The notes beneath the pieces were generated by a model. It had not been told where the DNA came from and did not search any database. It saw only the letters and a program-made list of their open reading frames with translations. DNA of 64,000 nucleotides, from contig JBBHKE010002836.1 of assembly GCA_037447655.1 (NCBI GenBank), positions 1-64,000 on the forward strand, read 5' to 3'. Each line of letters starts with the position of its first letter. Within the stretch, counting starts at the first letter, position 1. The position numbers were made by a program, and so were the translations under genes. Origin of the DNA: Zygnema cylindricum (lineage: Eukaryota; Streptophyta; Zygnematophyceae; Zygnematales; Zygnemataceae). Of this stretch, positions 23,406-62,492 are shown in pieces.

Positions 23406-23410
23406 GTTTA

Positions 23411-24664
23411 TGTTGAAATTGATGTATTTTCTAGGTCTGTATTGGAAAAATAAATAGAGTAAGTTAGCAAAGGCAATCTGCTTCTCGCTCAAACTCTCCA
23501 GTCTCCATACTTGTTGCAGTCACTGAAGACCGGAGAGAGAGCTAGAGCAATGGCTGTCTATAATGTCCAAGTAGACAGAAAATAGGCTAATGCTTAATTT
23601 GTACCAAAAAAAAACCGCCAGACCAAAGATTTGATCCTGGCACCTACAAGCCGTTAGAGGATTTAAAGTAAGCTTTAGCCATTAGACGAAATCAATGATT
23701 ATATATTTTGGGTACAATAAGTATTTAAAAGTGTTCAAGTAGAGAATTGCCAAACAGGCTGACAAATAATTAAAAGCTGCTCTAAACCACATTTGAGCTT
23801 GGTACCTCTGGAATCTCCATAGCCGAACGCATTAACCATTAAGGCGCTTCGAAACGATACACGTCACGGGTTTCAAAGATTAATAAACATTAACATAACA
23901 TCTAATTAACACCAGACTAACGAAGAGGAACAGTTCATGCATCTACGCAAATCTGAACCGTGTAAAATATGTTTTGATCGAATGGCCGGCATTGTAGCCG
24001 CCACGCAAAGTGAACTTTTGGCAGCATTCGGAGATAGCGTCACGCGGTGCCATATGGCGTCACAATATTTGATACCGGAGAAGATGGGAGAAGGAACCAT
24101 GACTCCCGATTTCACAGGTGTCACCTTGTAGACCATGCCGTACAATGGTCGTACACTAAGTACGTCTTATATTGTACCTTCTTGTACTTTATAGTGTTCT
24201 TATTGGACTAGGGTTTAGCAGTAGGTAGTCGTGAGTTGGCAGACCAAGACTTAGTGATATTTAGGTACCTCTCTCTAAGAGTGCTTGTAACTATAAAGGT
24301 CATCTTTGACCAATCTTAACTTAATGCTCGGGTGAGCAAATTCAATGATTCTTTTTGCTGCGGACTCAAAGGAGTCAAAGCTACAGCATTGCAGTCGGTT
24401 AGAGTTTTTGTGTACTAGGGTGGCATATATTCAATGGGAAAGTCAAAGTGGGGAATATTATCCAAATCACATGTTCTAGCTTTGCATTCCGTGGTGGAAC
24501 TGAGCACACAGAAGGTCTTCTCTTCAGAGGGGTGAAGGTGAATTGGGGTTGTAATTGTCTAGGGATCATTCATTTTGGTTTATATCAACTTCGAGTCGAC
24601 ACTATCTAGATTAGTTTCTTTTGGATCTGCGAATTCAGTGGGCAATGGAGCCAATAGAATTTCA
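23411..24664 (+). repeat. 5' LTR of element I
   Basis: 1,254 bp, TG...CA. Within it, on the minus strand, is a degraded tRNA-like segment (about 23780-23850). A weakened version of the leader stem-loop row follows from about 24362. Confidence 0.85.
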
Positions 24665-26590
24665 AGTTATGGGCCCACCATCTAGGGTGCCTATGTTTGA
24701 TGGAACAAATTTCACTGATTGGGAGTTTACGATGGAGGGATTGCTTTTTGAAAAGCATTTATGGGGAATTGTTTTGGGACAAGTGAGGTGTCCGCCACCG
24801 GGCTTTGGAGGAACTCACTGTGGAGAATCATCTAAAACTTCCCAAAAAACCAACCGGATTGCAGAGGCAACGGAAGGTGAAGGGAAAATTATTGTCATAG
24901 AAGGGGGAAAATGGGAGAAAGTAAAAGGGTCACCTATGGTGAAGGGAGCTAGGCTCTCGGCTACAGCTCCACTGGAAGGAGCTATAATTGAAAAAAAAGA
25001 CATAAAAATATGGGAATACAAAAACACTATAGCAAAAAATCTCATACTTAGAAATGTGTATAAGTTCATAGCTATCACTCTTTTGAATCTAACCAAATCT
25101 TCCGAAATTTGGGAAACACTAAGTCAGATTTATAAGAATGAGACTATTCAGAGGCAGCAATTTGTAAAACAAAAAATAGAGGCATATGTTTCTAAAGGTG
25201 GTAGCATCATAAAGTTTTACAATGATATTGCTACGTTTTACGTTGAGCTTGCTAGTGCGGGATATGTAAAATCTGAGGAGAGGAAGATTACTACACTACT
25301 ATTGAAACTCCCTGATCAGTACGAAAACATCATTTGTTGTATGCAGGTAATGGATGCTCCTCATGGACTAGGAGCTTTACCATGGGGATAATTCTTGTGA
25401 GGGAAAGCAATTTAGAGCTTCGTAGGGAAAGTGTGAGGGTGAATGCATTTCCAACAAGTGGTGATTGGCGGAAGCGTGATGAGAGGAACGATGGTGACGA
25501 GCGAAAGCGTGATGAGAGGAAGAAAGACAAAAGTAAACCTTATCAGAAATTTGATAGAAAGAGAGGGAGAGGAAAAGAAAGGGGAGCTTTGAAAAAAAGA
25601 GGGTTTGCTTGTTTTGTATGGAACCGGGTCACTATATGGAAGAATGCCGTTGTTGGGAAGAACTTAGAAATTGGAATGGGGATGAGGAGGAAGAAAGGGA
25701 AGAGCAGAAAGAGGATAAAGAAATCTTGGAGCTTCTCCACATCGGTAGAATGGAGAAGAGAGAAAAGTACACAAAAATTCCACGAAAAAACAACAGTGTG
25801 CTTTTGGAGGTATAAGGGAAGCAAAGGGAAGGGAGGAACTTAAGGGAGTTAGACATGATGTGGTTGTCAATGATTTTAGAAAGTCAGATCTAGAATCTAT
25901 AATTGAAAAAGGGAAAAATAAAAATAATGAGGATAATTTAATAGATATTTTGGAAACAGAAAACTGGTCGGAAAATAAAACTTCAACGGCTTTCGAGGTA
26001 AGGGGAGAAGTAAATCTCGAGGGGGTTTTAAAAGATATAGGAGAACAGGAATATGTAATGAAAGGTTTAGGGGAGGAGAAATATTTATTGGGAATAAAAG
26101 GAGAAAGTGATAGCGGAAAGAATTCCATGGGAGAGAGTGAGGAAAGTTCAGAAATGGGGAAAGTATTATGGATAAAAATATGAATACACAAGAAGTAGAT
26201 CTTATGAGGAACTTACAGGGGACACTTATTTTTTGGGAAAATTTGGGGGGTAATGAATTTGACATCACTAATGGGAGGGGTGGCATTTTTGAAAGTGTGC
26301 CTGTAAAAGGGTTAGCATCTAGGTGTGTGTTGCATATTGGACATTGGGCTGGCTGTTTGAATTGCAAGAGGGAAATTGGATTTAGCGTGGATGGAAAAGA
26401 GATGAGGTGGATAAAATATTTTCTCGGATTTATGAAAAATGGCATGCAAAATAAGATGTATAATGATGTAATTATTATTTCGGTTCACTTAATACACTTC
26501 TTTAAATTCGAGGGTATTCACTTAAAGTTTTACGAGGAGAAAAGAAAGAGGAAAAGAAAGAAAAAAAAATGTTTTAGTGGGAGTTGAAAA
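24644..26590 (+). pseudogene. Gag of element I with broken zinc knuckle
   Basis: The frame MEPIEFQVMGPPSRVPMFDG runs to 25391. It contains the Copia gag pattern SSEIWETLSQIYKNETIQ and KLPDQYENII. It then shifts by one base into VRESNLELRRESV. A CCHC zinc knuckle (CMEPGHYMEEC) is readable at about 25608-25650 after another one-base shift. Downstream frames to 26587 are Lys/Glu-rich and unrecognised. The in-frame ATG inside the primer-binding site is an alternative start. Confidence 0.75.
24666..24679 (+). promoter_or_regulatory. Primer-binding site of element I (half tRNA-iMet type)
   Basis: GTTATGGGCCCACC begins one base after the 5' LTR. It is the exact complement of the anticodon arm of plant initiator tRNA-Met (GGTGGGCCCATAAC), ending at nucleotide 39. 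Drosophila copia uses a 39-nt tRNA-iMet fragment in the same way. Confidence 0.75.
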
Positions 26591-26605
26591 AAAGGTAGAC
26601 TAGAG

Positions 26606-26616
26606 AATAATGGGAG
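26606..26616 (+). promoter_or_regulatory. Polypurine tract of element I
   Basis: AATAATGGGAG lies directly before the 3' LTR. It matches AATAAGGGGAG in elements A and B and AATAAGGTAAG in C. Confidence 0.7.
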
Positions 26617-26990
26617 TGTTGAAATTGATGTATTTTCTATGTCTGTATTGGAAAAATAAATAGAGTAAGATAGCAAAGGCAGCCTGCTTCTCGCTCAAAC
26701 TCTCCAGTCCCCATACTTGTTGCAGTCACTGAAGACCGGAGAGAGAGACCTAGAGCCATGGCTGTCTATAATGTCCAAGTAGACAGAGAATAGGCTAATA
26801 CTTAGTTTATACCAAAAAGAAACCGCCGGATCAAATATTTGATCCTGACACATACAAGTCGTTAAAGGACTTAAAGTAAGCTTTAGCCATTAGACCAAAT
26901 CAACGTTTAGATATTTTGGGTACAACAAGTATTTAAAAGTGTTCAAGCAGAGAATTGTCAAACAGGCTGACAAATAACTAAAAGCTCCTC

Positions 26991-27056
26991 TAAACCAGAT
27001 TTGAACCTGGTACCTCACAAATCTCCATAGCAGAACGCATTAACCATCTAGGCTCT
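26991..27056 (-). other. tRNA-like segment in the LTR of element I (antisense)
   Basis: The minus strand has A-box TGGTTAATGCG (27046-27036) and B-box GTTCAAATC within ACCAGGTTCAAATCTGGT (27011-26994). The spacing fits a tRNA. The acceptor stem is not convincing. Confidence 0.4.
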
Positions 27057-27569
27057 ACGAAACGATACACGTCACGGGTTTCAAAGATTAATAAACATTA
27101 ACGTAACATCTAATTAACACAAGACTAACGAAGAGGAACAATTCATGCATTTACGCGAATCTGAACCGTGTAAAATATGTTTTGATCGAACGGCTTGCAT
27201 TCTAGCCGCCACGCAAAATGAGCTTTTGGTGGCATTCAAAGATAGCGTCACGCGGTGCCACTTGGTGTCACATTATTTGATACCGGAGAAGATGGGAGGA
27301 GGAACCATGGCTCTAGATTTGACAGGTGTCACCTTGTAGACTATGTCGTACAATGGCCGTACATTAAGTACATCTCCTGTTGTACCTTCTTTTACTATAT
27401 AGTGTCCTTATTGGACTAGGGTTTAGCAGTAGGTAGTCGTGAGTTGGCAGACCAAGACTTAGTGATATTTAGGTATCTCTCTCTAAGAGTGCTTGTAACT
27501 ATAAAGGTCATCTTTGACCAATCTTAACTTAATGCTCGGGTGAGCAAATTCATTGATTCTTTTTGCTGC

Positions 27570-27636
27570 GGACTCAGGGGAGTCCAAGCTACACAGGGGT
27601 GTAGTCGGTGAGAGTTTTTGCGTGCCAAGGTGGCAC
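27570..27636 (+). promoter_or_regulatory. Row of three LTR stem-loops in element I
   Basis: Stem-loops are GGACTC-AGGG-GAGTCC (27570-27585), CTACAC-AGGG-GTGTAG (27589-27604) and GTGCCA-AGG-TGGCAC (27622-27636). The same order with different stem bases is found in A and B. These lie in the transcribed leader upstream of the primer site. Packaging or dimerisation is a possible role. Confidence 0.6.
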
Positions 27637-27879
27637 ATATTCAGTGGGAAAGTCAAAGTGGGGAATATTGTCCAAATCACATGTTTTAGCTTTGCATTAA
27701 ATGGTGGAACTGAGCACATAGAAGGTCTTCTTTTCACAGGTGTGAAGGTGTATTGGGGTTCTAATTGTCAAGGGATCCTTCATTTGGGTTTATATCAACT
27801 TCGAGTCGGCACTATCTAGATTAGCTTCTTTTGGATCTGCGAATTCTGTGTGCAATGGAGCCAATAGAATTTTAGTTTA

Positions 27880-43021: not shown

Positions 43022-43362
43022 TGAAACTCTGAGACCTCCATAAGTCCTTAGAATGGACAGCTTCCAAGAAGCCTCTAGGATAACCCTCACCCCTTTGTGT
43101 TTCAGCAAGAACAACATCCACCCTGGCAGACAAAAACTCTGACCACCTTCACCCCCGTGAAGACAAGACTCCCTTGAGTCTATAGCAAAAAGAATCTCTG
43201 AATTTGCTCCCCTGAGCAGTTAAATGAATTATCCTACGTGTTATTATTTCAATAAATAACAAACCCTATAGTGTGTATCACTAGTACTAGTCTTATTGGA
43301 TAAGTCTACCGGCTACCGGCTGCCCAGCGGACCGACAAGTACCAAGATCAAATCCTGGTTCC
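43022..43362 (-). repeat. 3' LTR of element B, distal piece
   Basis: Matches the TGAAACTCTGAGACC side of 54356-54926. It contains stem-loops CTTCAC-CCCC-GTGAAG and AGACTC-CCTT-GAGTCT. It stops at the target GTTCC, where element A is inserted. Confidence 0.85.
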
Positions 43363-44416
43363 CGCAATTCTGTGTCCTCCATTTGGACGAAGAATGAGGA
43401 AGCCTCTAGGTAATTTTTGACTAACCCACTTTCAACGAGAGCAACTGCTACCCTAGCAGACAAATAAATAACTTGATTGCACCCCTGTGCAGTCTGGACC
43501 CCCCTGAGTCCACAGCAAAAAAGTAACCTGATTGCACCCCTGTGCAGTCTGGACTCCCCTGAGTCCACAGCAAAAAGAATCAGTGAAAACGCTTTATCAG
43601 ACGATTAATTCTCAAGCGGCAAAGATGCCAATATTTATAGAAGATTGTTGGGAGAGAGGCTGCTACCTCCTCAATCCACTAAGTCCCAAACCCTCTCACA
43701 ACCCCTATCTACTGAAGTACGGGACCAATCAGAAGACTGTATAGTACACAAAAGTACCATGGCCGATGTATTTTTCATACGGCCTGTGTACGACAAGGCC
43801 ATGGAGTGGACGCCTGTCTCCTCCGAACTTGTCCTCACGCTCCCCAGGATTCCGGCTTCCCAATGACGTATTGCCACGTGTCGCCAGGTTATGTTATATC
43901 CGCAAACCGCCAAAGCGGTCATTCCATGATCTCGGCGATGATGTGAGCCGTCGGATCTAAGTAGGCTTTAATTCCCAACCGTTGAAAACAAATGTCCGGT
44001 ATATTTGTTTCGTGCGCACTTTAATTTCCCAACTAGTTTCTATGTATCCTATTTGTAATTCCGTTAATCGGATTAGTCGTCTATCTATTGTTTAAATAGC
44101 TATCAAACCCTATGTATCCTAACGGACTACTACGACAGACTGGTAAGGGTTGACGGCTATGCCTCCCCCTACCGGTCGGAGGTTCGAGTCATGCCGGACT
44201 CAACCTTTTTGGTTGAGAGTCACTTAGGTCACTCTTAAGCCCTGCCTATGGAGCTAAGGCAACCATGGCTCCACCGCCCTCTCTCTCCTTCAGGGACTAC
44301 AACAAGTATGGGGGTCAAAGAGAGAAGGTGGAGGCAAGTTGCCTCTTGCTTTTCTTTTCTTTCTTATTTTAATTAAGACCTAGAAAATACCTCCCCTAAA
44401 TCTAGTGATTTCAACA
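43363..44416 (-). repeat. 3' LTR of element A
   Basis: 1,054 bp. The left end begins CG where TG is expected, a likely C/T transition. It contains a tandem repeat of the GCACCCCTGTGCAGTC stem-loop segment (about 43470-43575) that the other LTR lacks. A tRNA-like segment with GGTTCGAGTC lies at about 44130-44210 on the plus strand. Confidence 0.87.
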
Positions 44417-44427
44417 CTCCCCTTATT
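44417..44427 (-). promoter_or_regulatory. Polypurine tract of element A
   Basis: Sense AATAAGGGGAG lies directly before the 3' LTR, conserved with element B. Confidence 0.75.
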
Positions 44428-44429
44428 TT

Positions 44430-46808
44430 CTAGTCTAATTTTAGTTTCTCTTTTAATCCACATTTTTCTCTACAATACTTTAGCTTGGGAGACGGCACAG
44501 ACTTTGTCATCATATTAGCCACCATTTCCCCATCACTCCTATACACCAAATTCACGATTTTATTTTCCACTTTTTCCCTCACAAAGCTCAATCTTATATC
44601 CATATGCTTTGCTTTAAAATGGTGTTTTGGATTGACTGCAATTGCAGCCTGATTGTCACAAAACACTTTATGTACTCCTTTCTTCATGTACCCCAATTCT
44701 TGCAACAACGACTTCACCCACATAAGCTCTTTCGCAGCAGAAGAAGAGGCCATGTACTCAGCCTCCATAGTGGACTGAGCAACAACCTTTTGTTGCTTCT
44801 TGCTCCAACAACAAGCACCTTCCCCCACATACAATACATACCCAGAAGTGCATCTTCTCATAGGTGCATCACCATAACTGGCATCACTCTAAGTAGTGAT
44901 GTCAGTGTGCTCCCCTCCCAAATGCAACCATAGATCCCTAGTTCCCACCAGGTATCTCATTACTCTCTTGGCTGCCTTCCAGTCTCTCTTTCTAGGATCA
45001 TTAAGACTCCTACTGAGGACTCCAACTCCTGCAGCTATGTGAGGCCTAGTACAATTCATAAAGTAAATCAAACTTCCTACAACCTGTCTGTAGGGAATAG
45101 ACTTCATAAATTGCCTCTCTTCAGGACTCATCTGATCATCTAACATTATCACTCCTTCTTGTACACTTCCATCACTTACTGTTTTCAAGTCCATGGGAGT
45201 GGTAGAATTGTTTGCATTCACCATCTGGAATTTCTCCAGCATATTTCCTATAGCCTCTTTCTGTGTAAGTCTGATGATCCTCTTCTCCCTATTTCTTTCC
45301 ATTTGAATTCCCGGAATATATTTAGCCTCTCCTAAATCCTTCATGTCAAATCTACTTCCCACATCTTTCTTTAACCTATTTATCTTCTCCATAAACTTAC
45401 TCAATACCAGCAAATCATCCACATAAATTGCAATAAAAATCCCACCATTCTCATCCTCAAACATATAAATAGATTGTTCAAAACTGATCCGAATATACCC
45501 TAGACTGGTAAGAAACTCATCTAGTTTCTTATTCCATTGTTTGGGGGGCTGCTTTAGTCCATATAAGGACTTTATAAGTCTGCAGACTTTGCTTTCCTCT
45601 CCTTCCTCTACAAAACCTTCTGGTTGCCGCAAGAAGATTTCTTCCTCCAGTTCACCGTTGAGGAAGGCGGTTTTGATATCCATTTGGGGAATTTCCATGT
45701 CTTCCGCTGCTGCTAAACTAAGGAAAATCCTTACAGATGGGAATCGAACTACCGGAGCAAAGGTCTCCTCATAATCTATCCCCTCTTTTTGAGTGAACCT
45801 TTTTGCCACCAGCCGAGCCTTAAATCTCACAATGGTGTTATCTGGATTCAGTTTCAGTTTAAATACCCATTTACACCCAATGGGTTTTCTATATGGTGGA
45901 GAGTCCACCAGCTCCCAAGTATTTGCCTCCATGATTGAAGCCATCTCATCATTTATGGCTCTGACCCACCTTTCTTTCTCCGGACTGTCCATTGCCTCTG
46001 AGTATGACTGAGGCTCATCTGGATGAGAAAGCTTTGTTACCTTGCAAGCAGCCTGTTTTCCTTGAAGTCTTTTGCTGCTCCTCCGTCCTCCCTCAAAGTC
46101 CGAAGCTGGAATAGAGGAAAGCCTTGGATTCCTGCGAACTGTCTCATCAGCTCCCCTATCCATGGGAACCGGTTTTGACTCCTCTTCCTCTCTCTCCTCA
46201 AAGGGTGTAGGAATATGAGGAGATTTTGGTGTATCTCCCCCATCTTTTATCTCCCCTCGATCTGCAATCATGTTTTCACTAGTGTCCTTTTTAGGAAGAT
46301 CTAAGTCCTCCTCACTCTCGGACTCAAAGTTGATTCTGATTTTCTTAGTGTATTTGAAGGGATAAAAAGACTTCCATTCATCCATGACAACTAGATGCTT
46401 TACCAGAATGATATCTTGTTTAGCTAAGTCATCGACTCTATAACCCTTGACATCCTCATCATATCCCACAAAATATTCCGGTTTCCCTTTAGCATCTAGT
46501 TTCCAGTTTTTCTTACTTGTGTCAAGACTGTAAACTTGACTACCGAATACTTTCAAGTGGGAAACATTCGGTTTCTTTCCAACCCATCTCTCATAAGGGG
46601 TCATTCCTTTAACAGCTGTGGTGAGGACTCTATTCTTAATGTAGTTAGCACAGTTCATGGCCTCTGCCCAAAATCTTCTTCCTATTTTCTTATCTGCCAA
46701 CATGCAACAAACACTATCTCCCAAAGTCCGGTTTAACCTCTCAGCTACCCCATTTTTTTCTGGATTATTCAGTACAATTTTCTGATGCTGAACTCCCTCA
46801 TCTCTCAA
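44430..46808 (-). pseudogene. Element A integrase C-terminus, reverse transcriptase and RNase H
   Basis: A long frame from 46808 holds the integrase end (KNGVAERLNRTL, with the likely catalytic Glu), KVFGSQVYSLDTSKKNWKL, and a complete-looking reverse transcriptase with GFTQ-like RFTQKEGIDYEETFAPVVR, QMDIKTAFLNGELEEEI and the YVDDLLVLS active site. A TAG stop at about 44886-44888 replaces the Trp of AWSDASYG, which is still readable in element C. RNase H then continues to 44430 (CTSGYVLYVGEGACCWS, TMEAEYMA, KAKHMDIRLSFVREK). Confidence 0.88.
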
Positions 46809-47143
46809 ATAATCCTCAAACTGGTTAGAAGTGTACTCTCCCCCATATCACTCCTTATTCTCTTAATGGGGGTTCCGTGCAACTTCTTACTCCAGGCTTT
46901 GTATTCTTTAAAGTATTTCGGTGTTTCAGACTTTGTTTTCAAGAAGTAGACTCTGGAATATCTAGACCAATCATCGGTAATTGTCAACATATACCTCTTT
47001 CCCTCAACCGAAGGCACCCTTGCTGGTCCCCAGATATCTGTGTGGACCAGATCTAGTACTTTCTCACCTCTATATGTGGTAGTTTTGGGAAAGGGAAGTC
47101 TGTGAGCCTTACCTTGGGCACAGCCACTACAGTCATCCATCAT
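46805..47143 (-). pseudogene. Element A pre-integrase finger end and integrase core
   Basis: MDDCSGCAQGKAHRLPFP gives the last part of the HHCC finger. HTDIWGPARVPSVEGKRYML gives the first catalytic Asp and RSDMGES the second. A one-base indel in the CTCCCCCATATCAC region (about 46838-46852; B reads CTCCACCATTGTCAC) breaks the frame before the rest of the core. Confidence 0.82.
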
Positions 47144-47147
47144 CTTA

Positions 47148-48137
47148 TTATCCCCAAAAGTGAATGCCCTCTACTACACCCAGCTTCTTCATTTCCCTCA
47201 GTCTATCAAAATGCACATGTCCCAAACGCTTAAGCCAGATCATCAAGCTCGGAACACCACCATAATAAGCACTCTTCTTTTCATTACTTAGGTTAAGCCT
47301 AAACATTCCTTGGCTACCCTTATCAGCTGTGAAGTAGACTTCATCACCATCATTAGCTATAAAGACTCCCTTTCTAGTGAAGGTATCAAAATCCTTGTCA
47401 TCTAATACAGAAGTAGACACAAGATTCTTACTCAACTGAGGAATGTAGAGCACATCTGAGAAGGTGAGAATAGAGGTCTTACCCTCCACTAAGAATTTCA
47501 GATCCACAGATCCCACTAGATCTGTGGTAACTACTCTCCCATCCCTATACTCTATTTCAACAGTAGGGATTTTTCTTAGCTTAGTGAAGAGGTGCTTGTC
47601 ACGACACATATGCATGGATGCACCTGAGTTGATGATCCATCCCTCCTCTGGTGCTTCCCGAATGGCTCCAAAGGCACACTTTAGTTTTCGAGGGATCTCT
47701 TTCTCCTCTAGATTCTCATCAAGAAGAAACTCCCCGTCCTCCTCCTCAGAGGACTCGTCCTCCTCAGTCTCTCCTTTCACTCGTGTGACCACAAGTGCTT
47801 TCTTCTTTTCTCCGGAAGAACCACCTCCACGATTTTCTTGGAGCCTCAACTTCGATAGCTTGATGCAATCAGCTATGAAGTGCCCCGGCTTTTTGCAGAA
47901 ATAACAAAGGCCCTTTGAAGTCCTCGGTTCTCCAAATTGATCTTTTTCCCCTTTGAAGCTATGGTTCGGCTTCTTCGGATCCTTCCTCCACCGGTCAGTT
48001 CCGGCAGCTAGAGCTTGCACGCTCTTTCCTCTTCTTCGGATCTCAATAGTGTTTTCCTGTACAAGTATCATTCGGACCACGGTGCTCCACTTCCAAGCAC
48101 TATCATCCATTTGTTGCTCTCTGTACACTATTTTCAT
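47148..48137 (-). pseudogene. Element A zinc knuckle, protease and pre-integrase region
   Basis: CYFCKKPGHFIADC is the gag CCHC knuckle. WIINSGASMHMCRDKH is the protease site; the catalytic Asp of D-S-G is Asn here, while element B keeps IIDSGA. Then come DVLYIPQLSKNLVS and a degenerate LGHVHFDRLREMKKLGV. The frame begins after a shift from the upstream gag near 48120. Confidence 0.85.
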
Positions 48138-48867
48138 ACTCCTCCGGCAACTTCATGATGAGAGTGTTAACTTTCATCTTCATAGTGCCTGTCCATCTGG
48201 CACTCTCCATCTCCATGTAAAGACAAGAGAGATCGGTGCAATAGTCCAACATCTTTCCTCCTTTGAAACTGTAACTGATCAGCCTTTGCTCAGCCTGCTG
48301 AAGTTCCTGAATGGTGCCAGCTCTATAGATCTCCACTAAGGTCATCCACAGCTCCTCAGCCTTGAAGATTTGAAAGTGAGAAGTTGCCAACGCTTGGGTG
48401 AGGTGCCTCAAAATGAAGTGCCTTGCATTCATGTTGGTGTACTCCCACATCTGAATGTCGTTTTCCTCGGTCTTCACAGCCATCACTCCGGGTGCCATGG
48501 CAATAGGAGTGAGAGGTGTCTCCTTTCCTTTCCCTTTTTCGGACACACTGCTGTCCCCATCATCTGTCTCCTGCGTTGGAGCAGATCGTGCTGCAGAAAA
48601 CCTCACTCCTCCAAACCCTGGTGGAGTTCGTTGAGATGGACGTTTCACTTGTCCACTTACAATACCCCAGTATCGTTTCTCACATAATGCCCCTGTCATC
48701 ATAACTTCCCAGTAAATGATTCCAGATCCGTTGAATATGGGTACCCTAGAGGGTGGGCCCATAACTTGCAGTTCTGTGTCCTCCATTTGGACCAAGAATG
48801 AGGAAGCCTCTAGGTAATTTTTGACTAACCCACTTTCAACGAGAGCAACTGCTACCCTAGCTGACAA
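48103..48867 (-). pseudogene. Element A gag, frame starting inside the LTR
   Basis: Frame of 254 codons. It begins in the 5' LTR (MSARVAVALVESGLVKNYLE), runs through the primer site as QVMGPPSRVPIFNG, and contains Copia gag features (RHFILRHLTQ, EELWMTLVEIY, KLPEEYENSV). It ends early by a frameshift near 48120. The ATG inside the primer site is an alternative start that would give MGPPSRVPIF. Confidence 0.8.
48752..48765 (-). promoter_or_regulatory. Primer-binding site of element A (half tRNA-iMet type)
   Basis: Sense GTTATGGGCCCACC lies one base from the 5' LTR. It has the same sequence and spacing as in element I, 24 kb away. Confidence 0.78.
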
Positions 48868-49764
48868 ATAAATAACCTGACTGCACCCCTGTGCAGTCAG
48901 GACTCCCCTGAGTCCACAACAAAAAAATCAATGAAAACGCCTTACCAGGCGATTAATTCTCAAGCGGCAAAGATGCCAATATTTATAGAAGATTGTTGGG
49001 AGAGAGGCTGCTACCTCCTCAATCCACTAAGTCCCAAACCCTCTCACAACCCCTATCTACTGAAGTACGGGACCAATCAGAAGACTGTATAGTACACAAA
49101 AGTACCATGGCCGATGTATTTTTCATACGGCCTGTGTACGAAAAGGCCATGGAGTGGACGCCTGTCTCCTCCGAACTTGTCCTCACGCTCCCCAGGATTC
49201 CGGCTTCCCAATGACGTATTGCCACGTGTCGCCAGGTTATGTTATATCCGCAAACCGCCAAAGCGGTCATTCCATGATCTCGGCGATAATGTGAGCCGTC
49301 GGATCTAAGTAGGCTTTAATTCCCAACCGTTCAAAACAAATGTCCGGTATATTTGTTTCGTGCGCACTTTAATTTCCCAACTAGTTTCTATGTATCCTAT
49401 TTGTAATTCCGTTAATCTGATTAGTCGTCTATCTATTGTTTAAATAGCTATCAAACCCTATGTATCCTAACGGACTACTACGACAGACTGGTAAGGGTTG
49501 ACGGCTATGCCTCGCCCTACCGGTCAGAGGTTCGAGTCCTACCGGACTCAACCTTTTTGGTTGAGAGTCACTTAGGTCACTCTTAAGCCCTACCTATGGA
49601 GCTAAGGCAGCCATGGCTCCACCGCCCTCTCTCTCTTTTAGTGACTACAACAAGTATGTGGGTCAGAGAGACAAGGTGGAGGCAAGCTGCCTCTTGCTTT
49701 TCTTTTCCTTCTTATTTTAATTAAGACCTAGAAAATTCTTCCCCTAAATCTTGTGATTTCAACA
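48767..49764 (-). repeat. 5' LTR of element A
   Basis: 998 bp, sense TGTTGAAATC...TGCA. It contains the stem-loop row at 48851-48915 and an antisense tRNA-like segment with GGTTCGAGTCC at about 49475-49555. Confidence 0.88.
48851..48915 (-). promoter_or_regulatory. Row of LTR stem-loops in element A
   Basis: Plus-strand view: GCTA-CCC-TAGC (48851-48861); CTGACTGCAC-CCCT-GTGCAGTCAG (48877-48900); GGACTC-CCCT-GAGTCC (48900-48915). A further CGCCT-TACC-AGGCG follows near 48940. In the RNA the loops read AGGG or GGG. Confidence 0.65.
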
Positions 49765-49999
49765 GTTTCGACATCTATTCTTTTATTAAACAAACTATTT
49801 ATCAGAAAAATCAACTAATCTATTTCTATTAAAACTCTGGATAGCCTAGGTAGCCATGGCTCTAGCTTATTCTCCAAATTCTTAGTGACTGCGACAAGTG
49901 TGGGAGTTGGAGATAGAAAGTAGAGGTAGTTTGCCTCGGCTTCTTTCTGTATTTCAATTTAGACCTAGAAAATACTAACAAGAACCATCAGTTTCTACA
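49765..49999 (-). repeat. 3' LTR of element B, proximal piece
   Basis: Continues the LTR interrupted at 43362 (GACATCTATTCTTTTA...TTTCTACA). It is directly followed by B's polypurine tract (sense AATAAGGGGAG, 50000-50010). Confidence 0.85.
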
Positions 50000-50040
50000 C
50001 TCCCCTTATTTTCTAGTCAATCTTTTATTTTAGACCATAC

Positions 50041-53000
50041 TTCTCCCTGCAGAAAATTAGCTTAGGGGAAGGCACAGGTTTTGTCATCATATTTGCTACC
50101 ATCTAACTATCTGGCCGGTACTCTAAACTGATTATTTTGTTTTCTACTTTCTCTCTAACAAAACTGAGTCGAATGTCCATGTGCTTGGCTTTAAAATGAT
50201 GTTTAGGATTGGCAGAAATAGCGATTGTTGCCTGATTATCACAAAAACATTTCTGCACACCACTCTTAAGGTGACCAAGCTCACCAAGCAAAGACTTGAC
50301 CCACATCAATTCTTTTACAGCACAACAAGAGGCCATATACTCAGCCTCCATGGTGGACTAAGCAATAACCTTTAGCTGTTTGCTACTCCAACAGCAAGCC
50401 CCATCACCCATATATAATACATATCCTGAAGTACATCTCCTCATTGGAGCATCACCATAACTGGCATCACTCTAAGTGGTGATGTCGGTATTGTTCCCAC
50501 CTAAATGCAACCATAGATCCCTAGTTCTTATCAAATATCTAAGGACTCTCTTAGCTGCCTACCAATCCCTCTTAGTGGGAGCATTTAAACTTCTACTCAG
50601 CACTCCTACAGCTGCAGCTAAATCCGACCGGGTACAATTCATAAAATAGATTAGACTTCCCACTACTTGTCTGTAAAGAATACTCTGCATGAACTTTTGT
50701 TCTTCATGAGATAATTCCTTGTCTAAGACTATGCCTCCTTCTTCCTAACTCCCCTCACTTCCCTTCTTTAACTCCATTGGAGTTGTACAACTATTAGCTT
50801 TATCCATGTGAAATTTTTCAAGCATGTTGCCTATTTCTTTTTTTTTAGTCAATCTTATAATCTTTCTTTTTCGGTTTTTTTCTACTTGAACTCCCAAAAT
50901 ATATCTTGCTTCCCCCATATCCTTTATTTCAAATCTCCCCTTAAGATCGGTTTTCAGTTTATTAATTTTTTCCATTGATTTACTTAAAACAAGCAAATCA
51001 TCAACATAAATTGCAATAAATATAACACCTTCAACATTTTCAAAGATATAGATTGAGTGATGTGAGCAGATCCAGATATATCCCAAACCGGTAAGAAACT
51101 CATCACGCTTCTTATTCCACTGTCGAGGCGCCTGTTTCAAACCATAAAGAGGTTTAATCAGCCAACATACTTTACTCTCCTCTCCTTCCTCCACAAATCC
51201 TTCGGGTTGTCGCATGAAGATCTCCTCCTCCAATTCCCCATGCAAAAAGGTTGTCTTGCTGTCCATCTCGTGCAACTCCAAGTCTTCCGCTGCCGCCAAG
51301 CTGAGAGGTATACGGACGGAGGGAAATCTGACGACCGGGGCAAAGGTTTCCTCGTAGTCGATTCGATTCCTTCTTTCTGTGTAAATCCTTTTGCCACTAA
51401 TCGGGCTTTGTAACGCTCAATTGTGTTATCCGGGTTCAGTTTTAATTTGAAAACCCACTTACAACCGATTGGTTTTCGATTAGGTGGACAGTCCACTAGC
51501 TCCCAAGTATCGGATACCATAATTGAGGCCATCTCCTCATTGATAGTTGTCTTCCACCAGTTCCTTCATGGACAAGTCATCGCCTCTCCATAAGTTTGAG
51601 GTTCATCTTGATGAGATAGTTTTGTTACCTTGTTATTAACTTGTTTTTCTTGCAATCTTTTGCTACTTCTCTTCCCCCCTCACAATCTCTGGCCAGAATA
51701 GATGGTTCTCGTGGGTTCTTTCGAACAATCTCGGCTTCTCCCCTTTCCCTTGATTCCAAATCAGTTTCCACCACGTCTTCTACTTTGGGTAGAGTTGTCA
51801 CTGGAGTTTCCGCATCCGAGTCATTTTCGGTCTGATTTGTACCTACAAGAATGTCATCTTCTCTAAAACCTGGATAGTTAGGGAGCTCAAAGTCATCGGA
51901 ATTTTTTGACTCAAATCTGATGTTTATTGACTTTGTATACTTGAAGGGATCCACAAACTTTCCTTCATCCATAACTACTAGATGCTTTACTAAGATTATA
52001 TCTTCCCTTTTTAGATCATAAACTCTATATCCTTTAACATCTTCATCCTATCCTAATAAGTATCCCGGTTTTCCTTTAGGATCTAGCTTCCAATTAGACC
52101 GATCTGTATCTAGACTGAATACTTGACTGCCGAAAACCTTTAAGTGAGATATATCTGGTTTTCGACCTAACTATCTCTCATGAGGTGTTTGATCATTTAT
52201 AGCTGAAGTAAGAACTCTATTTTGGAGGTAATTAGCACAGTTCATTGCTTGTGCCCAAAACCTTTTTCTTATCTTCTTATCCGACAACATACTTCTAGCA
52301 CTATCACTTAATGTCCTATTTAATCTTTCAGCTACCCCATTCTGTTTCGTGTTTTCTGGAACTGTCTTTTGGTGTTGGACCCCATCTTCCCTCAGAAAAT
52401 CCTCAAACTGGTTAGAAGTATACTCTCCACCATTGTCACTCCTTACTCTCTTGATTGGTGTTTCATGGAGTTTTTCGCTCCATGCTTTATATTATCTAAA
52501 ACAATCCTGAGCTTCTGACTTGTTTTTCAAGAAATACACCCTGGAATACCGAGACGAATCATCAGTGATGGTCATCATAAATTTCTTCCCCCCCGGTGAG
52601 GGCACTTTAGCTGGTCCCCAAATATCTTTGTGCAATAAATCTAGAATTTTGTCTCCCTTATAGATGGTTGTTTTGGGAAAGGGTAATTTGTGTGCTTTAC
52701 CTTGAGCACATCCACTACAATCACTTATATTATCACTCTCACTAAACTGAATCCCTTACACCACTCCAATCTTTTTCATCTCTCTTAAGCTATCTAGATT
52801 CACAAGCCCAAGCCTTTTATGCCATATCATAATATCATGAATACCATCATAATAAAGATTCTTTGTTTCATTACTTAAAATCAGCTTAAACATCCCTTGG
52901 CTACCTTTCTCAGCAATGAAATGGACCTCTTCATCAAAGCTAGCAGTAAAGACTCCTTCCCTAGTGCTAGTAAAAAAACCCTTATCTTCTAATACAGATG

Positions 53001-54345
53001 TAGAGATGAGGTTTTTGTTCAGCTCAATAATAAACAATACATTGGAGAATGTTACTATAGATGTCTTTCTTTCTACTAACACTTTCAGATCTACCGATCC
53101 TATAAGAGTAGTAATGACTATACTCCCATCCCCGTACTCTATCTCTACGGTGGGAATCTTTCTTATCTTATTGATCAGGTGCTTATCCTTACACATGTGC
53201 ATGTAGGCACCTGAATCTATAATGTAGCGTGCTTCACCTTTCAATGCACCGTAAGCACATTTCTGCCATCGTGGAATTTCGACCTCGGTTTTCGCCTCCA
53301 ACTCCTCATCCAATAGGAGCTCATCTTCCTCGTCCTCGGATTCCGCCTCATGTACCTGTGTCACAAGGGCATTTTTCTTTCCTCTCAGGGTTCCACTGTT
53401 CTGCCCCTCCTTTAACCGAAGCTCGGTTAGCTTAGTGCACTTTGCCATATAGTGCCCGGGTTTCTTACAAAAATGACATAAACCTTTGGGAGCCTTTGGT
53501 CCGAACTCGTCGGTCTGATTTTTCAACTCCCTCCCCCCATATTTTCCGACCAGTTTATTGGAATCCTTATTCCTCCAATCCGTCGCAGCTGCCAAGGCTT
53601 GCCCAATCTTTCCTCCCCTTTGGATCTCAATCGTATTCTCCCGAACGAGAATGATCCCTACCACTGATTTTCATATCCACCTTGAGTCAAGCAAGTCCTG
53701 CACACGGTTGACTATGTTCTCGAACTCATCGGGTAGCTTCATCAGTAAACAGTTAACCTTTTCTTTTTCACTAAAATATTTTCCAGCACTCTCTTGCTCC
53801 ATGAAAGTGTGGCAAGCTCATTGCAAAAATCCAACATCTTCCCCCCCTTGTATACATACTCCATAACTTTCTGATCAGCCAACTGTTGTTGCTGAATCGT
53901 ACTACTTCGGTACATCTCTATGAGAGCCATCCAAAGATCGGATGCCCTTTCTACCTGCAAATGAGGACATGCAAGCCCTTGAGTAAGATGGCGGAGGATG
54001 AAGTGCTTTGCCGCCATATTGTTGAAGTCCCAAGTATCAGTAGCATTCTCCTTGTTCCTCGGAATAGGTGACATGAATGCCGAACCTGTTGCTATTGGTG
54101 TGGTCGTCCCCTTTAACCGTTCTTTTGTCCACCACCTCTCGTTCCTTTGTCTCCTCCGTTGAAGATGGATATGCTTTCCTTGTGAATTTGCTTCCTCCAA
54201 ACCCTGGAGGGATTCCAAGACTTGATGGACGCCCCACTCGTCCACTCACTATCCCCCAAAACCTTTTCTCGCATAGAGCTCTTATCATCATTCTTTCTGA
54301 GTATATGAAGCAAGTTCCATTAAAGATGGGTACCCTAGAGGGTGG
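50041..54345 (-). pseudogene. Element B gag-pol remnant
   Basis: From the 5' side: gag with RGPPSRVPIFNGTCF, where the primer-site ATG has become AGG; gag body 54245-53742; zinc knuckle CHFCKKPGHYMAKC and protease YIIDSGAYMHMC with Asp kept (53664-52756); a damaged integrase (52700-52000); RT 51532-50745 with GFTQKEGIE and YVDDLLVLSKSMEK; RNase H 50351-50103 (TMEAEYMA replaced in part by MEAEYMASCC, KAKHMDIRLSFVREK). Many stops and frameshifts are present. Confidence 0.85.
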
Positions 54346-54354
54346 GCCCCTAAC
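54341..54354 (-). promoter_or_regulatory. Primer-binding site of element B (one mismatch)
   Basis: Sense GTTAGGGGCCCACC, one base changed from elements I, A and C (ATG to AGG). It lies one base from the 5' LTR at 54356. Confidence 0.7.
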
Positions 54355-54355
54355 T

Positions 54356-54926
54356 TGAAACTGTAAGACCTCCATAAGTCCTCAGAATGGACAGCTTCTA
54401 AGAAGCTTCTAAGATAACCCTGACCCCTTTGTGTTTCAGCAAGAACAACTGCCACCCGGCAGATAAAAACTCTGACTACCTTCACCCCTGTGAAGACAAG
54501 ACTCCCCTGCGTCTATAGCAAAAAGAATCTCTGAATTTGCTCCCCTGAGCAGTTAAATTAATCATCCTACGTGTTATTATTTAAATAAATAACAAACCTT
54601 ATATTGTGTATCACTAGTCTTAGTCTTAATGGATAAGTCTATCGGCTACCGGGTGCCCAGCGGACCGGCAGGTACCAGGATCAAATCCTGGTTCCGACAT
54701 CTATTCTTTTAGTAAACAAACTATCTATCAAAAAAATCAACTAATCTATTTCCCGTAAACCTCTGGATAGCCAAGGTAGCCATGGCTCTAGCTTCCTCTC
54801 CAAATTCTCAGTGACTGCGACAAGTGTGGGAGTTGGAGAGAGAAGTTAGAGATAGGATGCCTCTGCTTCTTTCTGTATTTCAATTAAGACCTAGAAAATA
54901 CTAACAAGAAACCATCAATTTCTACA
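54356..54926 (-). repeat. 5' LTR of element B
   Basis: 571 bp. The stem-loop row at 54450-54550 comprises TGCC-ACCC-GGCA, CTTCAC-CCCT-GTGAAG, AGACTC-CCCT-GCGTCT and GCTC-CCCT-GAGC. A perfect T-arm-like CCAGG-ATCAAAT-CCTGG sits at 54675-54691 on the plus strand, antisense to the element. Confidence 0.88.
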
Positions 54927-56773: not shown

Positions 56774-56965
56774 TTGGAACTAGGGTACCAGAAGCTTGCG
56801 CGTGTGACACGTGTACAAGATGGCCTCCACCACCCATTCTCCCACATTTCTTCCAACTTCGCGGCCATCGCTCTTTGGCACCTTCATCTTATGTTCTCTT
56901 TACGGATTTTAGTACCACCAAGTAGTGGAGGTGGCAGTTGGGCTAGAGAGGCTATGGCATGTTGA
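56774..56965 (+). pseudogene. Probable left part of a LINE interrupted by element C
   Basis: The frame ends GGGSWAREAMAC at the insertion site. After removing C and one GTTGA copy, it continues, after a stop, with QRFLHRNWKALYTEHEDG at 62497 and beyond. Identity as LINE rests on the downstream part. Confidence 0.35.
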
Positions 56966-58030
56966 TGAAACTCTAAGACCTCCATAAGTCCTCATGATGG
57001 ACAGCTTCCAAGAAGCCTCTAGGATAACCCTGACCCCTTTGTGTTTCAGCAAGAGCAACTGCCACCCTGGCAAACAAAAACTCTAACCACCTTCACCCTT
57101 GTGAAGACAATACTCCTTGAGTCTATAGCAAAAAGAATCTCTAAATTTGCACCCCTGACGAGGACGTTATGGAGGGTCAAAGTTGACCTTTTGTACAGAA
57201 GCTCTCTGGGAGAGAGGGTCCTATCTACCAATTTTTCTAAGTCTTATCTCTCTCACAAACTCTATCATTTGATGTACGAAACCAATCATATTACTGTGCC
57301 GTACAGAAAGGTACAACTGCAGGTGTACTTTCTGTACGAATACTATACGACATGGCCTAAAAGTCGACACATGTCATATCTGAATTCGCTCCCGTAATCC
57401 CCGGAGATGCCGCGATCCAACGTTATTTTTCCACATGTCATCCTATGTGGCGATGACCACAAACCGTCGAGATTCTCTTCCGCGTTCTCGGCTTTCTTCC
57501 CGGTCTTCTGATTAAATGAAGATTACAATCGCAGCCGTTATAAATACTTGCGCGATATTTGTTTCTTTAAAGAAACAAATGGGCGGTACTTGTTTCTTAC
57601 ATATACCGTAATCTATACTTTTATATAGCTGGATCTATGCATTCCGTAAACAGTTCCAGTTAAACCAATTTTCCTAGGTTGTAATGTTTAAATAAATATC
57701 AAACCCTATAGTATGTATCATTGGTTCTAGACTGAACAGATAAGGCTACCGTCTACCGGCTACCTGACGTCCGCATGTTCCAGGATCAAATTCTGGGGCC
57801 GTCACTATTCCTTTTAGTAAATAAACTACCTATCGGTAAATCAACTAATCTATTACCCGTAAACCTCTGGATAGCCTAGGTAGCCATGGCACTAGCTTCC
57901 TCTCCAACTTCTCAGTGACTACGACAAGTGTGGGAATTGGAGAGAGAAGTTAGAGATAGACTGCCTCGGCTTCTTTCTGTATTTCTATTTAGACCTAGAA
58001 AATGCTTAAAAAGGACCATCAATTTCTACA
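56966..58030 (-). repeat. 3' LTR of element C
   Basis: 1,065 bp. It has stem-loops CTTCAC-CCTT-GTGAAG and ACTC-CTT-GAGT near 57090-57125, and a T-arm-like GGATCAAATTCTGG near 57783. The polypurine tract, sense AATAAGGTAAG, follows at 58031-58041. Confidence 0.87.
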
Positions 58031-58043
58031 CTTACCTTATTTT

Positions 58044-61000
58044 CTAGTCAATCTTTAATTTTTGACCACACTTCTCCCTGCAGGAAATTAGCTTAGGGGA
58101 AGACACAGGTTTGGTCATCATATTTGCTACCATCTCGCTATCTGGCCAGTACTCTAAACTGATTATTTTGTTCTCTACTTTCTCTCTAGCAAAGCTGAGT
58201 CTAATGTCCATGTGCTTAGCTTTAAAATGATGTTTAGGATTGGCAGAAATAGCGATTGCTGCCTGATTATCACAAAATATTTTCTGCACACCACTCTTAA
58301 GGTGACCAAGCTCACCAAGCAAAGACTTGACCCACATCAATTCTTTTACAGCAGAGCAAGAGGCAATATACTCAGCCTCCATGGTGGACTGAGCAATAAC
58401 TTTTTGATGTTTGCTACTCCAACAGCAAGCCCCATCACCCACATATAATACATATCCAGAAGTGCATCTCCTCATCGGAGCATCACCATAACTGGCATCA
58501 CTCCAAGCAGTGATGTCAGTATTCTCCCCACCCAAATGCAACCATAAATCCCTAGTTCCTATCAAATATCTAAGGACTCTCTTAGCTGCCTCCCAATCCC
58601 TCTTAGTGGGAGCATTTAGACTTCTACTCAACACTCCTACAGTTGCAGCTAAATCCAGCCGGGTACAATTCATAAAATAGATTAGACTTCCCACTACTTG
58701 CCTGTAACGAATAGTCAGCATGAACTTCTGTTCTTCAGGAGATAATTCCTCGTCTAAGACTATGACCCCTTATTCTCACTCCCCTCACTTCCCTTCTTCA
58801 ACTCCATTGGAGTTGTACAACAATTAGCTTTATCCATTTGAAATTTTTGAAGCATGTTCCATATTGCTTCCTTTTTAGTCAATCTTATAATCTTTCTTTT
58901 TCGGTCTCTTTCTACTTGAATTCCCAAAATATATTTTGCTTCCCCCATATCCTTCATTTCAAATCTCCCCTTAAGATCGGTTTTCAATTTATTAATTTTT
59001 TCCATTGATTTACTTAAAACAAGCAAATCATCTACATAAATTGCAATAAATATATTACCTTCACCATTTTCAAATATATAGATTGAGTGATCTGAGCTGA
59101 TCCGGATTTATCCCTGACCGGTAATAAACTCATCAAGCTTCTTATTCCATTGTCGAGGCGCTTGTTTCAAACCATAAAGAGGTTTAATTAGCCGGCATAC
59201 TTTACTCTTCTCTCCTTCCTCCACAAATCCTTCGGGTTGTCGCATGATGATCTCCTCCTCCAATTCCCCATGCAAAAGGTTATCTTGATGTTCATCTGGT
59301 GCACCTCCATGTCTTCCGCTGCCGCCAGGCTAAGAAGTATACAGACGGAGGGAAATCTGACGACCGGGGCAAAGGTTTCCTCGTAGTCAATTCCTTCTTT
59401 CTATGTAAATCCTTTGGCCACTAATCAGGTTTTGTAACGCTCAATTGTGTTATCTGGGTTCAGTTTTAATTTGAAAACCCACTTACAACCGATTGGTTTT
59501 TCGGTTAGGTGGACAGTCCACCAGCTCCCAAGTATCGGCTGCCATAATTGAGGCCATCTCCACATTGATGGCTGTCTTCCACCAGTTCTTTTCTGGACAA
59601 GTCATTGCCTCTCCATAAGTCTGAGGTTCATCTTGATGAGATAGTTTTGTTACCTTGTTATTAACCTGTTTTTCTTGCAATCTTTTGCTACTTCTCCTTC
59701 CACCTTCAAAATCTGTGGCCAGAATAGATGATTCTTGTGGGTTATTTCGAACAATCTCGGCTTTTCCCCTATCCCTTAATTCCAAATCAGTTTCCACTAC
59801 ATCTTCCGCTTCGCGTAGAGTTGTCACTGGAGTTCCCGTTGTCGAGTCCTTTTCGGTTTTATTTGTACCTGCAAAAATGTCATCTTCTTTAAAACCTGGA
59901 TAGTTAGGAAGCTCAAAGTCATCGAAATTTTCTGACTCAAATCTGATGTTTACTGACTTTATATACTTGAAGGGATCCACAGATTTTCCTTCATCCATAA
60001 CTAATAGATGTTTTACTAAAATTATACCTTTGTTTTTTAGATCATAAACTCTATATCGTTTAACATCCTCATCATATCCTAATAAGTATCCCGGTTTTCC
60101 TTTAGGATCTAGCTTCCAATCTGTATTTAGACCGATGTGTATCTAGACTGAATACTTGATTGCCGAAAACCTTTAAGTGAGATATATATGGTTTCCGACC
60201 TGTCCATCTCTCATAAGGTGTTTGATCTTTTATAGCTGAAGTAAGAATTCTATATTTGAGGTAATTAGCACAGGTCATTGCTTGTGCCCAAAACCTTTTT
60301 CATATCTTCTTATCCGACAACATACTTCTAGCAATATCACTAAGTGTCCTATTTAATCTTTCAGCTACCCCATTCTGTTTCGGGTTTTTTGGAACTGTCT
60401 TTTGGTGTTGGACTCCATCTTCCCTCATAAAATACTCAAACTGGTTAGAAGTATACTCTCACCATTGTCACTCCTTACTTAGTAAGCTTAGTGCACTCTG
60501 CTATATAGTGCCCGGGTTTCTTACAAAAATGACATAAACCATTGGGAGCCCTTGGTCCAAACTCGTCGGTCTGATTTTTCTGCTCCCTCCCCCCATAGTT
60601 TCCAACCGGTTTATGGGAATCCTTGTTCCTCCAATCGGTCGCTGCTGCAAAGGCTTGCCCACTCTTTCCTCCCCTTCGAATCTCAATCATATTCTCCCGA
60701 ACAAGAATCCTCCCTACCACTGAGTTATATATCCACCTTGAGTCTGGCAAGTCCTACACACGGTTGACTATTGTCTTGAACTCATCACGTAACTTCATAA
60801 GTAAACAGTTAACCTTTTTATTTTTCACTAAAATCTTTTCCAACACTCTCTGGCTCCATGAAAAGTGTAGCAAGCTCATTGCAAAAATCCAACAGCGTCC
60901 CCCCTTTGTATACATACTCCATAACTTTCTGATCAGCCAACTGTTGTTGCTGAATTGTACCATTTCGGTACATCTCTATGAGAGCCATCCAAAGATCGGA

Positions 61001-61408
61001 TGCCCTTTCTACCTGCAAATGAGGACATGCAAGCCCTTGAGTAAGATGGCGGAGGATGAAGTGCTTTGGCGCCATATTGTTGAAGTCCCAGGTATCAGTA
61101 TCATTCTCCTCGTTCCTCGGAATAGGTGACATGAATGCTGAACTTGTTGCTATTGGTGTGGTCGTCTCCTTCTCCGTTCCTTTTTCCACCACCACTCGTT
61201 CCTTTGTCTCCTCCGTTGAAGATGGATCTGCTTTCCTTGTGAATTTGTTTCCTCCACACCCTGGAGGGATTCCACGACTTGATGGACGCCCCACTCGTCC
61301 ACTCAGTATCCCCCAAAACCTTTTCTTGCATAGAGCTCCAGTCATCATACTTTCCCAGTATATGAAGCTAATTCCATTAAAGATGGGTACCCTAGAGGGT
61401 GGGCCCAT
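58044..61408 (-). pseudogene. Element C gag-pol remnant
   Basis: The gag frame from 61408 starts MGPPSRVPIFNG at the primer-site ATG and runs to 60818. The zinc knuckle CHFCKKPGHYIAEC is near 60510. The deletion junction is at about 60478, followed by an integrase tail and linker (59998-59483). RT is broken, with DDLLVLS-type sequence near 59026. An intact-looking RNase H frame occupies 58721-58044 (AWSDASYGDAPMRRCTSGY, TMEAEYIASC, KAKHMDIRLSFAREK). Confidence 0.85.
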
Positions 61409-61411
61409 AAC
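61398..61411 (-). promoter_or_regulatory. Primer-binding site of element C (half tRNA-iMet type)
   Basis: Sense GTTATGGGCCCACC, identical to I and A, one base from the 5' LTR. The contained ATG opens the gag frame. Confidence 0.78.
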
Positions 61412-61412
61412 C

Positions 61413-62492
61413 TAAAACTGTGAGACCTTTAAAAGTCCTCAAAATGGACAGCTTCTAAGAAGCCTCTATGATAACCCTGACCCCTTTGTGTTTCAGCAAG
61501 AACAACTGCCACCCTGGCAAACAAAAACTCTGACTACCTTCATCCTGGTGAAGACAAGACTCTCTTGAGTCTATAGCAAAAAGAATCTCTGAATTTGCAC
61601 CTCTGAGCAGTAAGTTATGGAGGGTCAAAGTTGACCTTTTGTACAAAAGCTCTTTGGGAGAGAAGCTCCTATCTACCAATTTTTCTAAGTCTTATCTCTC
61701 TCACAAACTCTATCTTTTGATGTACAGAACAAATCATATTACTGTGCCGTACAGAAAGGTACAGCTGGCGGTGTACATTTTGTACGAATATTGTACGACA
61801 TGGCCTAAAAGTCGACGCATGTCATATCCGGATTTGGTCCCGTAATCCCGGGAGATGCCGCGATCCAACGTAATTTTGCCACGTGTCATCTTATGTGGCG
61901 ATGACCACAAATCGCCGAGATTCTTTTCCGTGATCTCGGCTTTTTTCCTTACCGTCCGATTAAATGAAGATTTCAATCGCAATCTTCATAAATACTTGCG
62001 AAATACTCGTTTCGTTAAAGAAACAAATGGGCGGTACTTGTTTCTTATATATACCGTAATCCGTACTTTTACATAGTTGGATCAATGCATTCCGTAAACA
62101 GTTCCAGCTAAATGAATATTCCTAGGTTGTAATGTTTAAATAAATATCAAACCCTATAGTATGTATCATTTGTTTTAGACTTAACAGATAAGGCTACCGT
62201 CTAAAGGCTACCTTCTACCGGCTACCTGACGTCCGGCATGTTCCAGGATCAAATCCTGGTGCCGTCACTATTCCTTTTAGTAAAAAAACTACCTATCGGT
62301 AAATCAACAAATATATTTCAGTAAACCACTGGATAGCCTAGGTAGCCATGGCTCTAGCTTCCTCTCCAACTTCTCAGTGATTGCGACAAGTGTGGGAGTT
62401 GGAGAGAGAAGTTAGAGATAGACTGCCTCTGCTTCTTTCTGTATTTCTATTTAGACCTAGAAAATACTTAAAAGGGACCATCAATTTCTACA
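61413..62492 (-). repeat. 5' LTR of element C
   Basis: 1,080 bp; its inner end is TA where TG is expected. The stem-loop row at 61507-61572 comprises TGCCA-CCC-TGGCA, a decayed CTTCA...TGAAG, and AGACTC-TCTT-GAGTCT. A T-arm-like CCAGG-ATCAAAT-CCTGG sits at 62243-62259 on the plus strand. Confidence 0.87.

Follow-up and report, generated by a model that had tools for sequence, protein, structure and literature searches.

The four elements and their primer-binding sites

We examined 64,000 nucleotides of the Zygnema cylindricum genome (assembly GCA_037447655.1, contig JBBHKE010002836.1, positions 1 to 64,000 of the forward strand; hereafter the window), which hold four long terminal repeat (LTR) retrotransposons, here called I, A, B and C. 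Judged from their sequence, they are half-tRNA-primed (hemivirus) elements of the Ty1/Copia type. An earlier note on the window had read their primer site in this way; that reading is right, and primers of this type have been described before. What is new is a hairpin at the end of the LTR, directly before a primer-binding site (PBS) that carries an AUG in the gag frame. One stretch of RNA appears to be built for both copying and protein making.

Element I (23411..27874, plus strand) has LTRs at 23411-24664 and 26617-27874 that are 91.1% identical, and is flanked by an exact 5-bp target duplication, GTTTA, at 23406-23410 and 27875-27879. It is a deleted copy, with an inter-LTR distance of only 1,952 bp. 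The other three lie on the minus strand. Element A (43363..49764; LTRs 48767-49764 and 43363-44416, 91.6% identical) has inserted into the 3' LTR of element B (43022..54926), splitting that LTR into two pieces, 49765-49999 and 43022-43362, which are 90.7% and 91.8% identical to the 5' LTR of B at 54356-54926. The duplication flanking A matches at 4 of 5 bp (GAAAC/GGAAC), and that of B, GATCT on both sides and exact, lies outside both A and B. Element C (56966..62492) has LTRs at 61413-62492 and 56966-58030, 89.5% identical, between two exact copies of TCAAC. Given that the two LTRs are 89.5-91.6% identical within each of I, A and C, and given the identities of the B pieces, the four elements are old copies. 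Their LTRs start with TGTTGA or TGTAGA; the last two bases are CA in 5 of 8, TA in 2 and CG in 1, and each 3' LTR is preceded by a purine-rich stretch.

The TG starts, with three exact 5-bp duplications and one of 4/5, place the elements in the Ty1/Copia superfamily (Pseudoviridae), as do the genes of A, which combine a Copia-type gag with an integrase region ahead of the reverse transcriptase domain RVT_2. The gag frame of I (24645..25391, plus strand) runs from an ATG in the LTR through the LTR end and the PBS, and that of A (48103..48786, minus strand) likewise spans the LTR end and the PBS; both open reading frames (ORFs) match the Pfam family Retrotran_gag_2. The later gag and pol of A (44889..48137, minus strand) are broken into pieces: 47148-48137 carries a zinc knuckle (zf-CCHC) and Pol_BBD, with gag_pre-integrs under the Pfam cut-off, and 44889-46808 carries SH3_retrovirus (residues 77-142) ahead of RVT_2 (residues 296-539). 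The best pol matches listed (120 of 7,761) show 31-53% identity over 36-100% of the query. No gag homologue was found elsewhere at E 1e-3 among 1,581 candidates, and an Rfam scan of the window at gathering thresholds gave no match.

The 14-mer GTTATGGGCCCACC occurs exactly at 24666-24679 on the plus strand (element I) and at 48752-48765 (A) and 61398-61411 (C) on the minus strand. At 54341-54354 on the minus strand, element B has GTTAGGGGCCCACC, which differs by one change. All four sites had been reported, including the single change in B; the earlier note was silent on its consequence, which is that the ATG within the PBS becomes AGG. The site was also said to lie directly inside the 5' LTR. 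It does so in all four elements, except that the LTR end and the 14-mer are separated by one nucleotide, which is A in I, A and B and G in C. Together, the LTR ends and the target duplications place the 14-mer as a true PBS. A search of the window allowing up to two mismatches returned 4 matches against 0.23 expected, a number reached in none of 100 shuffles. The genome searched comprises 352.8 Mb in 2,689 contigs, and all genome-wide tallies of repeated motifs given here are lower bounds; it holds 7,512 exact copies of the 14-mer (3,769 + 3,743), against 9 of the same pattern read backward. The window shuffles and this excess lead us to reject a chance match.

The proposed complementarity to half an initiator tRNA-Met, up to nucleotide 39, also holds: the 14-mer is the exact complement of nucleotides 26-39, an internal segment, in the genome's own tRNA-Met genes, on the position numbering that we assume for the tRNA. 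The anticodon arm GTGGTGGGCCCATAACCCAC has seven exact matches in the genome, and ARAGORN calls a tRNA-Met(CAT) gene over six of them, leaving L053 uncalled. The check suggested in the earlier note, whether the anticodon arm of the organism's own tRNA matches, has thereby been run with a positive result for these six genes, which presumably encode the equivalent of plant initiator tRNA-Met, since they resemble it. In 35 of 46 junctions a G precedes the 14-mer at position -1, which extends the complementarity to tRNA nucleotide 40. At one locus, L050 (G000:C301, about 304,770-305,110), two co-oriented tRNA-Met(CAT) genes lie 269 bp apart and are identical over the compared stretch.

As a separate observation, the PBS contains the palindrome GGGCCC in all exact copies of the 14-mer, which could allow RNA-RNA pairing at the PBS.

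Half-tRNA priming has precedents, among them Osser, whose host is Volvox. The comparisons here and below set the Zygnema elements against published descriptions, not sequences. The genus Hemivirus is distinguished by its use of a short tRNA segment (PMC8515867), and hemivirus cDNA is described as beginning from tRNA nucleotide 40 (PMC1181622). Half-tRNA priming, predicted here for the Zygnema elements, is shared by the Drosophila elements copia and 1731, yeast Ty5, and Osser (PMC8515867, PMC1181622), and for Ty5 and copia it is placed at the anticodon loop (PMC10886601). In the fungus Puccinia hordei, Copia elements are likewise reported to have anticodon-loop PBSs, of which one is for tRNA-iMet (PMC10886601). 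The earlier note had contrasted the half-tRNA site with the usual tRNA 3'-end site of plant Copia elements; that such a site is new in plants is not supported, as 1/2tRNA-Met PBSs are reported in the plant Copia lineages Osser, Bryco and part of Gymco-II in REXdb (PMC6317226). The portion of that article available describes neither a gag AUG nor a hairpin for these lineages. Three features would set the Zygnema elements apart from known hemiviruses, for which the texts consulted do not mention them: the PBS within the gag frame, the usual presence of an in-frame LTR AUG ahead of it, and a covarying hairpin at the end of the LTR.

Two AUGs in the gag frame

To follow the PBS beyond the window, we collected 100 exact copies of the 14-mer from fetched loci and the window, removed three near locus ends (L056-L058) and a further eight that duplicated the same 160 nt, and retained 89 junctions. 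They come from the contigs listed first (C1-C41) and the window, not at random. Because selection was by the exact 14-mer, the sample is uninformative on how often the PBS ATG is lost, and element B falls outside it. One member, L031 (14-mer at 2054), belongs to a divergent, decayed family that shares the PBS; its nearby upstream ATGs are out of frame, and it has no LTR-end hairpin of the common type.

The earlier note had placed the ATG of the PBS in frame with gag, which the junctions bear out: a phenylalanine common to the gag N-termini stands at codon 10 from this ATG in 85 of 89, the exceptions being L032, L072, L075 and L080. In element I the PBS (24666..24679, plus strand) is the complement of tRNA-iMet nucleotides 26-39 and its in-frame ATG lies at 24669-24671.

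A second in-frame ATG usually lies ahead of it, in the LTR. Genome-wide, 6,118 of the 7,512 copies (81%) have an ATG 21 nt upstream of the 14-mer, compared with 7 in the control. Among the sampled junctions this ATG, 24 nt before the PBS ATG, is in frame in 78 of the 89, and in 69 the reading frame continues from there into the PBS without a stop; the other 20 of the 89 show no open in-frame ATG within 150 nt ahead of the PBS ATG. Read from the upstream ATG, the gag N-terminus is M-E-x-x-E-F/L-Q-V-M-G-P-P. The proposal of a single AUG for both primer binding and the start of gag is borne out as far as the reading frame goes, and is weakened by the open LTR AUG ahead of the PBS in most junctions. 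In the window, upstream in-frame ATGs had been reported in the 5' LTRs of I (24645..24647, plus strand) and A (48784..48786, minus strand). Both are there, and B has one too (54373-54375), intact and open in frame to the altered PBS. In C the corresponding codon, 21 nt upstream, is TTA and is followed by a TAG just before the PBS (61398..61411, minus strand); the earliest in-frame ATG there is that of the PBS, with 196 codons open.

The two AUGs differ in context. For the upstream AUG (n = 78), position -3 is C in 56, T in 8 and G in 14, and position +4 is G in 73. With a pyrimidine at -3 in 64 of 78, leaky scanning to the PBS AUG is plausible. The PBS AUG has G at both -3 and +4 because these bases are complementary to C39 and C33 of the tRNA; its favourable context thus follows from which primer is used.

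In 7 of the 89 junctions (L001, L002, L004, L021, L040, L045 and L061) the two AUG positions are separated by an in-frame TAA, always at codon 5, which may be recurrent or inherited. The comparison does not show this class to be a single young clade: the copies compared span two stem groups and have mutual identities of 77-88% among the pairs listed. Nine loci have at least 450 open codons; eight of them have an open upstream ATG and one, L001, has the intervening TAA. This copy (G000:C1:17890), seen at greater length as L009, stays open for at least 837 codons after the PBS ATG, up to where the locus ends, an open length that matches the longest other copy seen, L025. This copy, L001/L009, suggests that initiation at the PBS AUG can suffice.

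The closest parallel to the leader is yeast Ty1, in which the 5' UTR covers nt 1-53 and the PBS nt 95-104, placing the PBS inside GAG (PMC5454406). As in Ty1, most Zygnema junctions have an open in-frame AUG before the PBS, here predicted to be used, with the PBS in the gag ORF and a structured leader; a second AUG within the PBS is not described for Ty1 in the text available (PMC5454406).

A hairpin at the end of the LTR

At its end the LTR folds, over ~40 nt, into a hairpin directly adjoining the PBS, with AATGGA in the loop of most copies. The upstream AUG is wholly unpaired in 64 of 72 minimum-energy folds. In I, where the hairpin segment occupies 24620..24665 (plus strand) and the upstream ATG falls in its loop, the fold is weak (-8.2 kcal/mol). 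For the hairpin as a group we used 80 junctions, leaving out L008, L031, L036 and identical 46-mers. Mean fold energy was -12.6 kcal/mol, compared with -8.0 for shuffles, which preserve single-base content only, and -11.5 for the antisense strand. The sense fold was the more stable in 56 of 79 unequal cases and the less stable in 23.

Four main stem types are found among the 80 junctions: GGTC (33), GGAC (19), GACC (9) and GCCC (9). Several stem pairs are altered on both sides, so that the arms differ between families yet remain paired. Over 11 stem pairs, 90% were paired when each sequence was scored with its own arms; when the 3' arm was swapped between stem types this fell to 71.6% (maximum 74.9% in 1,000 draws). 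Stem positions were set by their distance from the PBS, each sequence being allowed a single optional shift, and the swapped controls had the same freedom. Within the stem, G-U cells number 62 and A-C cells 23. Alignment of the LTR end with MAFFT and folding with RNAalifold gave three pairs only, which could be due to a bulge that shifts the arms. Stem types move as units: junctions with an I-type LTR body and gag carry the GCCC stem in 8 cases and the GGTC stem in 7.

Fungal GalEa (PMC5445492) and retroviruses, with their U5-IR (PMC3601003), also have a hairpin where LTR and PBS meet, and Tf1 self-priming offers a further likeness. GalEa has no tRNA PBS, and its hairpin site replaces one; the Zygnema hairpin lies almost wholly in the LTR and is followed by an exact tRNA PBS. 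Covariation supports the stem, which by analogy may correspond to U5-IR. While the half-tRNA primer type is already known, its overlap with gag and the adjoining hairpin, as read here from sequence, were not found described in the open-licence literature: in the portions available we found neither a gag AUG in a half-tRNA PBS nor an AUG-bearing, covarying LTR-end hairpin before such a PBS.

A proposed double use of the leader

The explanation we consider probable is that of a half-tRNA-primed Copia element in which leader and gag are fused, both AUGs are used, and the hairpin helps reverse transcription to begin. A 5' half of initiator tRNA-Met that ends at nucleotide 39 or 40 would anneal to the 14-15 nt PBS and prime the minus strand. 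Gag could start at either of two in-frame AUGs eight codons apart, one in the hairpin loop of the LTR and one in the PBS; dual initiation is our best guess. The upstream AUG would be tried first, with leaky scanning then reaching the PBS AUG, which would suffice alone where the upstream AUG is missing or a stop separates the two. As an annealed primer would cover the PBS AUG, the same RNA could not be translated and primed simultaneously. By analogy with the retroviral U5-IR stem, the hairpin most likely acts as reverse transcription begins, where it would stack on the primer duplex.

Several observations weigh against use of both AUGs. Junctions with at least 130 open codons have an open upstream ATG in 27 of 31 cases, compared with 42 of 58 others; the difference has the expected direction and is not significant (p 0.18). 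In codons 3-4 of the eight-residue extension, positions 1 and 2 vary between stem groups while position 3 is near-constant. The extension has no coding signature, and the stem may be all that conserves this region, which may be untranslated; a coding constraint as the cause of LTR-end conservation is not supported by this pattern. In the loop, the A at -17 is constant in 45 of 46 junctions, as constant as the three ATG positions (44, 43 and 43), and the loop may therefore be kept for a reason other than initiation. If transcription started within the last 40 nt of the LTR, the upstream AUG would lie outside the mRNA. Finally, the copies share descent, so their agreement in frame may represent one event, not thousands.

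Alternatively, gag would start on the shared PBS AUG alone, a reading that is possible but not favoured; most sampled frames can begin in the LTR. The start codon would then mirror the tRNA anticodon and be renewed at each reverse transcription, and the upstream AUG would be merely a structural loop. The gag-frame position of the PBS AUG with its G at -3 and +4, the pyrimidine at -3 of the upstream AUG with no coding signature after it, and the recurring TAA all fit this. So does the divergent L031, whose gag is in the PBS-ATG frame and which has a TGA 24 nt ahead with no in-frame ATG after it, but L031 is degraded. The long frame of L001/L009 behind its TAA lends weight here, although a TAA newly arisen in a single copy would give the same picture. 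Of the nine copies open for 450 codons or more, eight keep the open upstream AUG, and 81% of exact PBS copies have an ATG at that position. It is tempting to go further and regard gag start codon and PBS as one object, an AUG that every round of replication copies anew, together with its optimal context, from the anticodon of its own decoding tRNA, with the paired tRNA half switching the RNA from translation to reverse transcription and the hairpin tuning the switch. This too would gain from L001/L009; we hold it as a tentative idea that is rather doubtful on present sequence comparisons.

The converse, a Ty1-like start at the LTR AUG with the PBS AUG as an internal Met codon that has no initiation role, we judge unlikely. 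The upstream AUG is first in scanning order and conserved, the available description of Ty1 provides a precedent, and B retains its upstream ATG despite having lost the PBS ATG. Against this stand its poor -3 context in most junctions and the intervening stops in otherwise open copies (L001/L009, L040 and element C of the window); L001/L009 in particular lowers the weight of such a start. Less probable still, and in our view quite improbable, is that the 14-mer is a PBS while the AUGs and hairpin are incidental to a short leader, the hairpin acting at the DNA level and a later Met starting gag. Covariation cannot separate RNA from DNA, and a later start would be compatible with the Pfam match of I gag, which begins at residue 116 of the 256-residue ORF (profile position 27), with Met codons after the PBS. 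However, the excess of G-U over A-C and the sense-strand bias favour RNA. An F-N/D-G motif near codon 10, which we take to be typical of Copia Gag N-termini, would also leave little room for a later start.

Retroelement RNA is both message and template, and how it passes between the two roles is an open question. In thousands of copies of the Zygnema elements, the primer site and the putative signal for starting translation occupy the same bases, beside a covarying hairpin, which makes the conflict between message and template testable in a leader of ~60 nt.

Other repeats were observed in the window. A 6.2-kb direct duplication (27404-33555 and 34067-40272, 96.3% identical) begins within the 3' LTR of I and contains weak similarity to the pol region of other elements. 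Upstream of the elements are a pyrimidine-rich low-complexity tract with long overlapping ORFs (2641-4585, plus strand), a diverged repeat array of ~65-68% identity (9020-10384), and an 823-codon ORF (11309-13780, minus strand) in which a 12-nt tandem repeat (12996-13349) encodes a proline-rich repeat.

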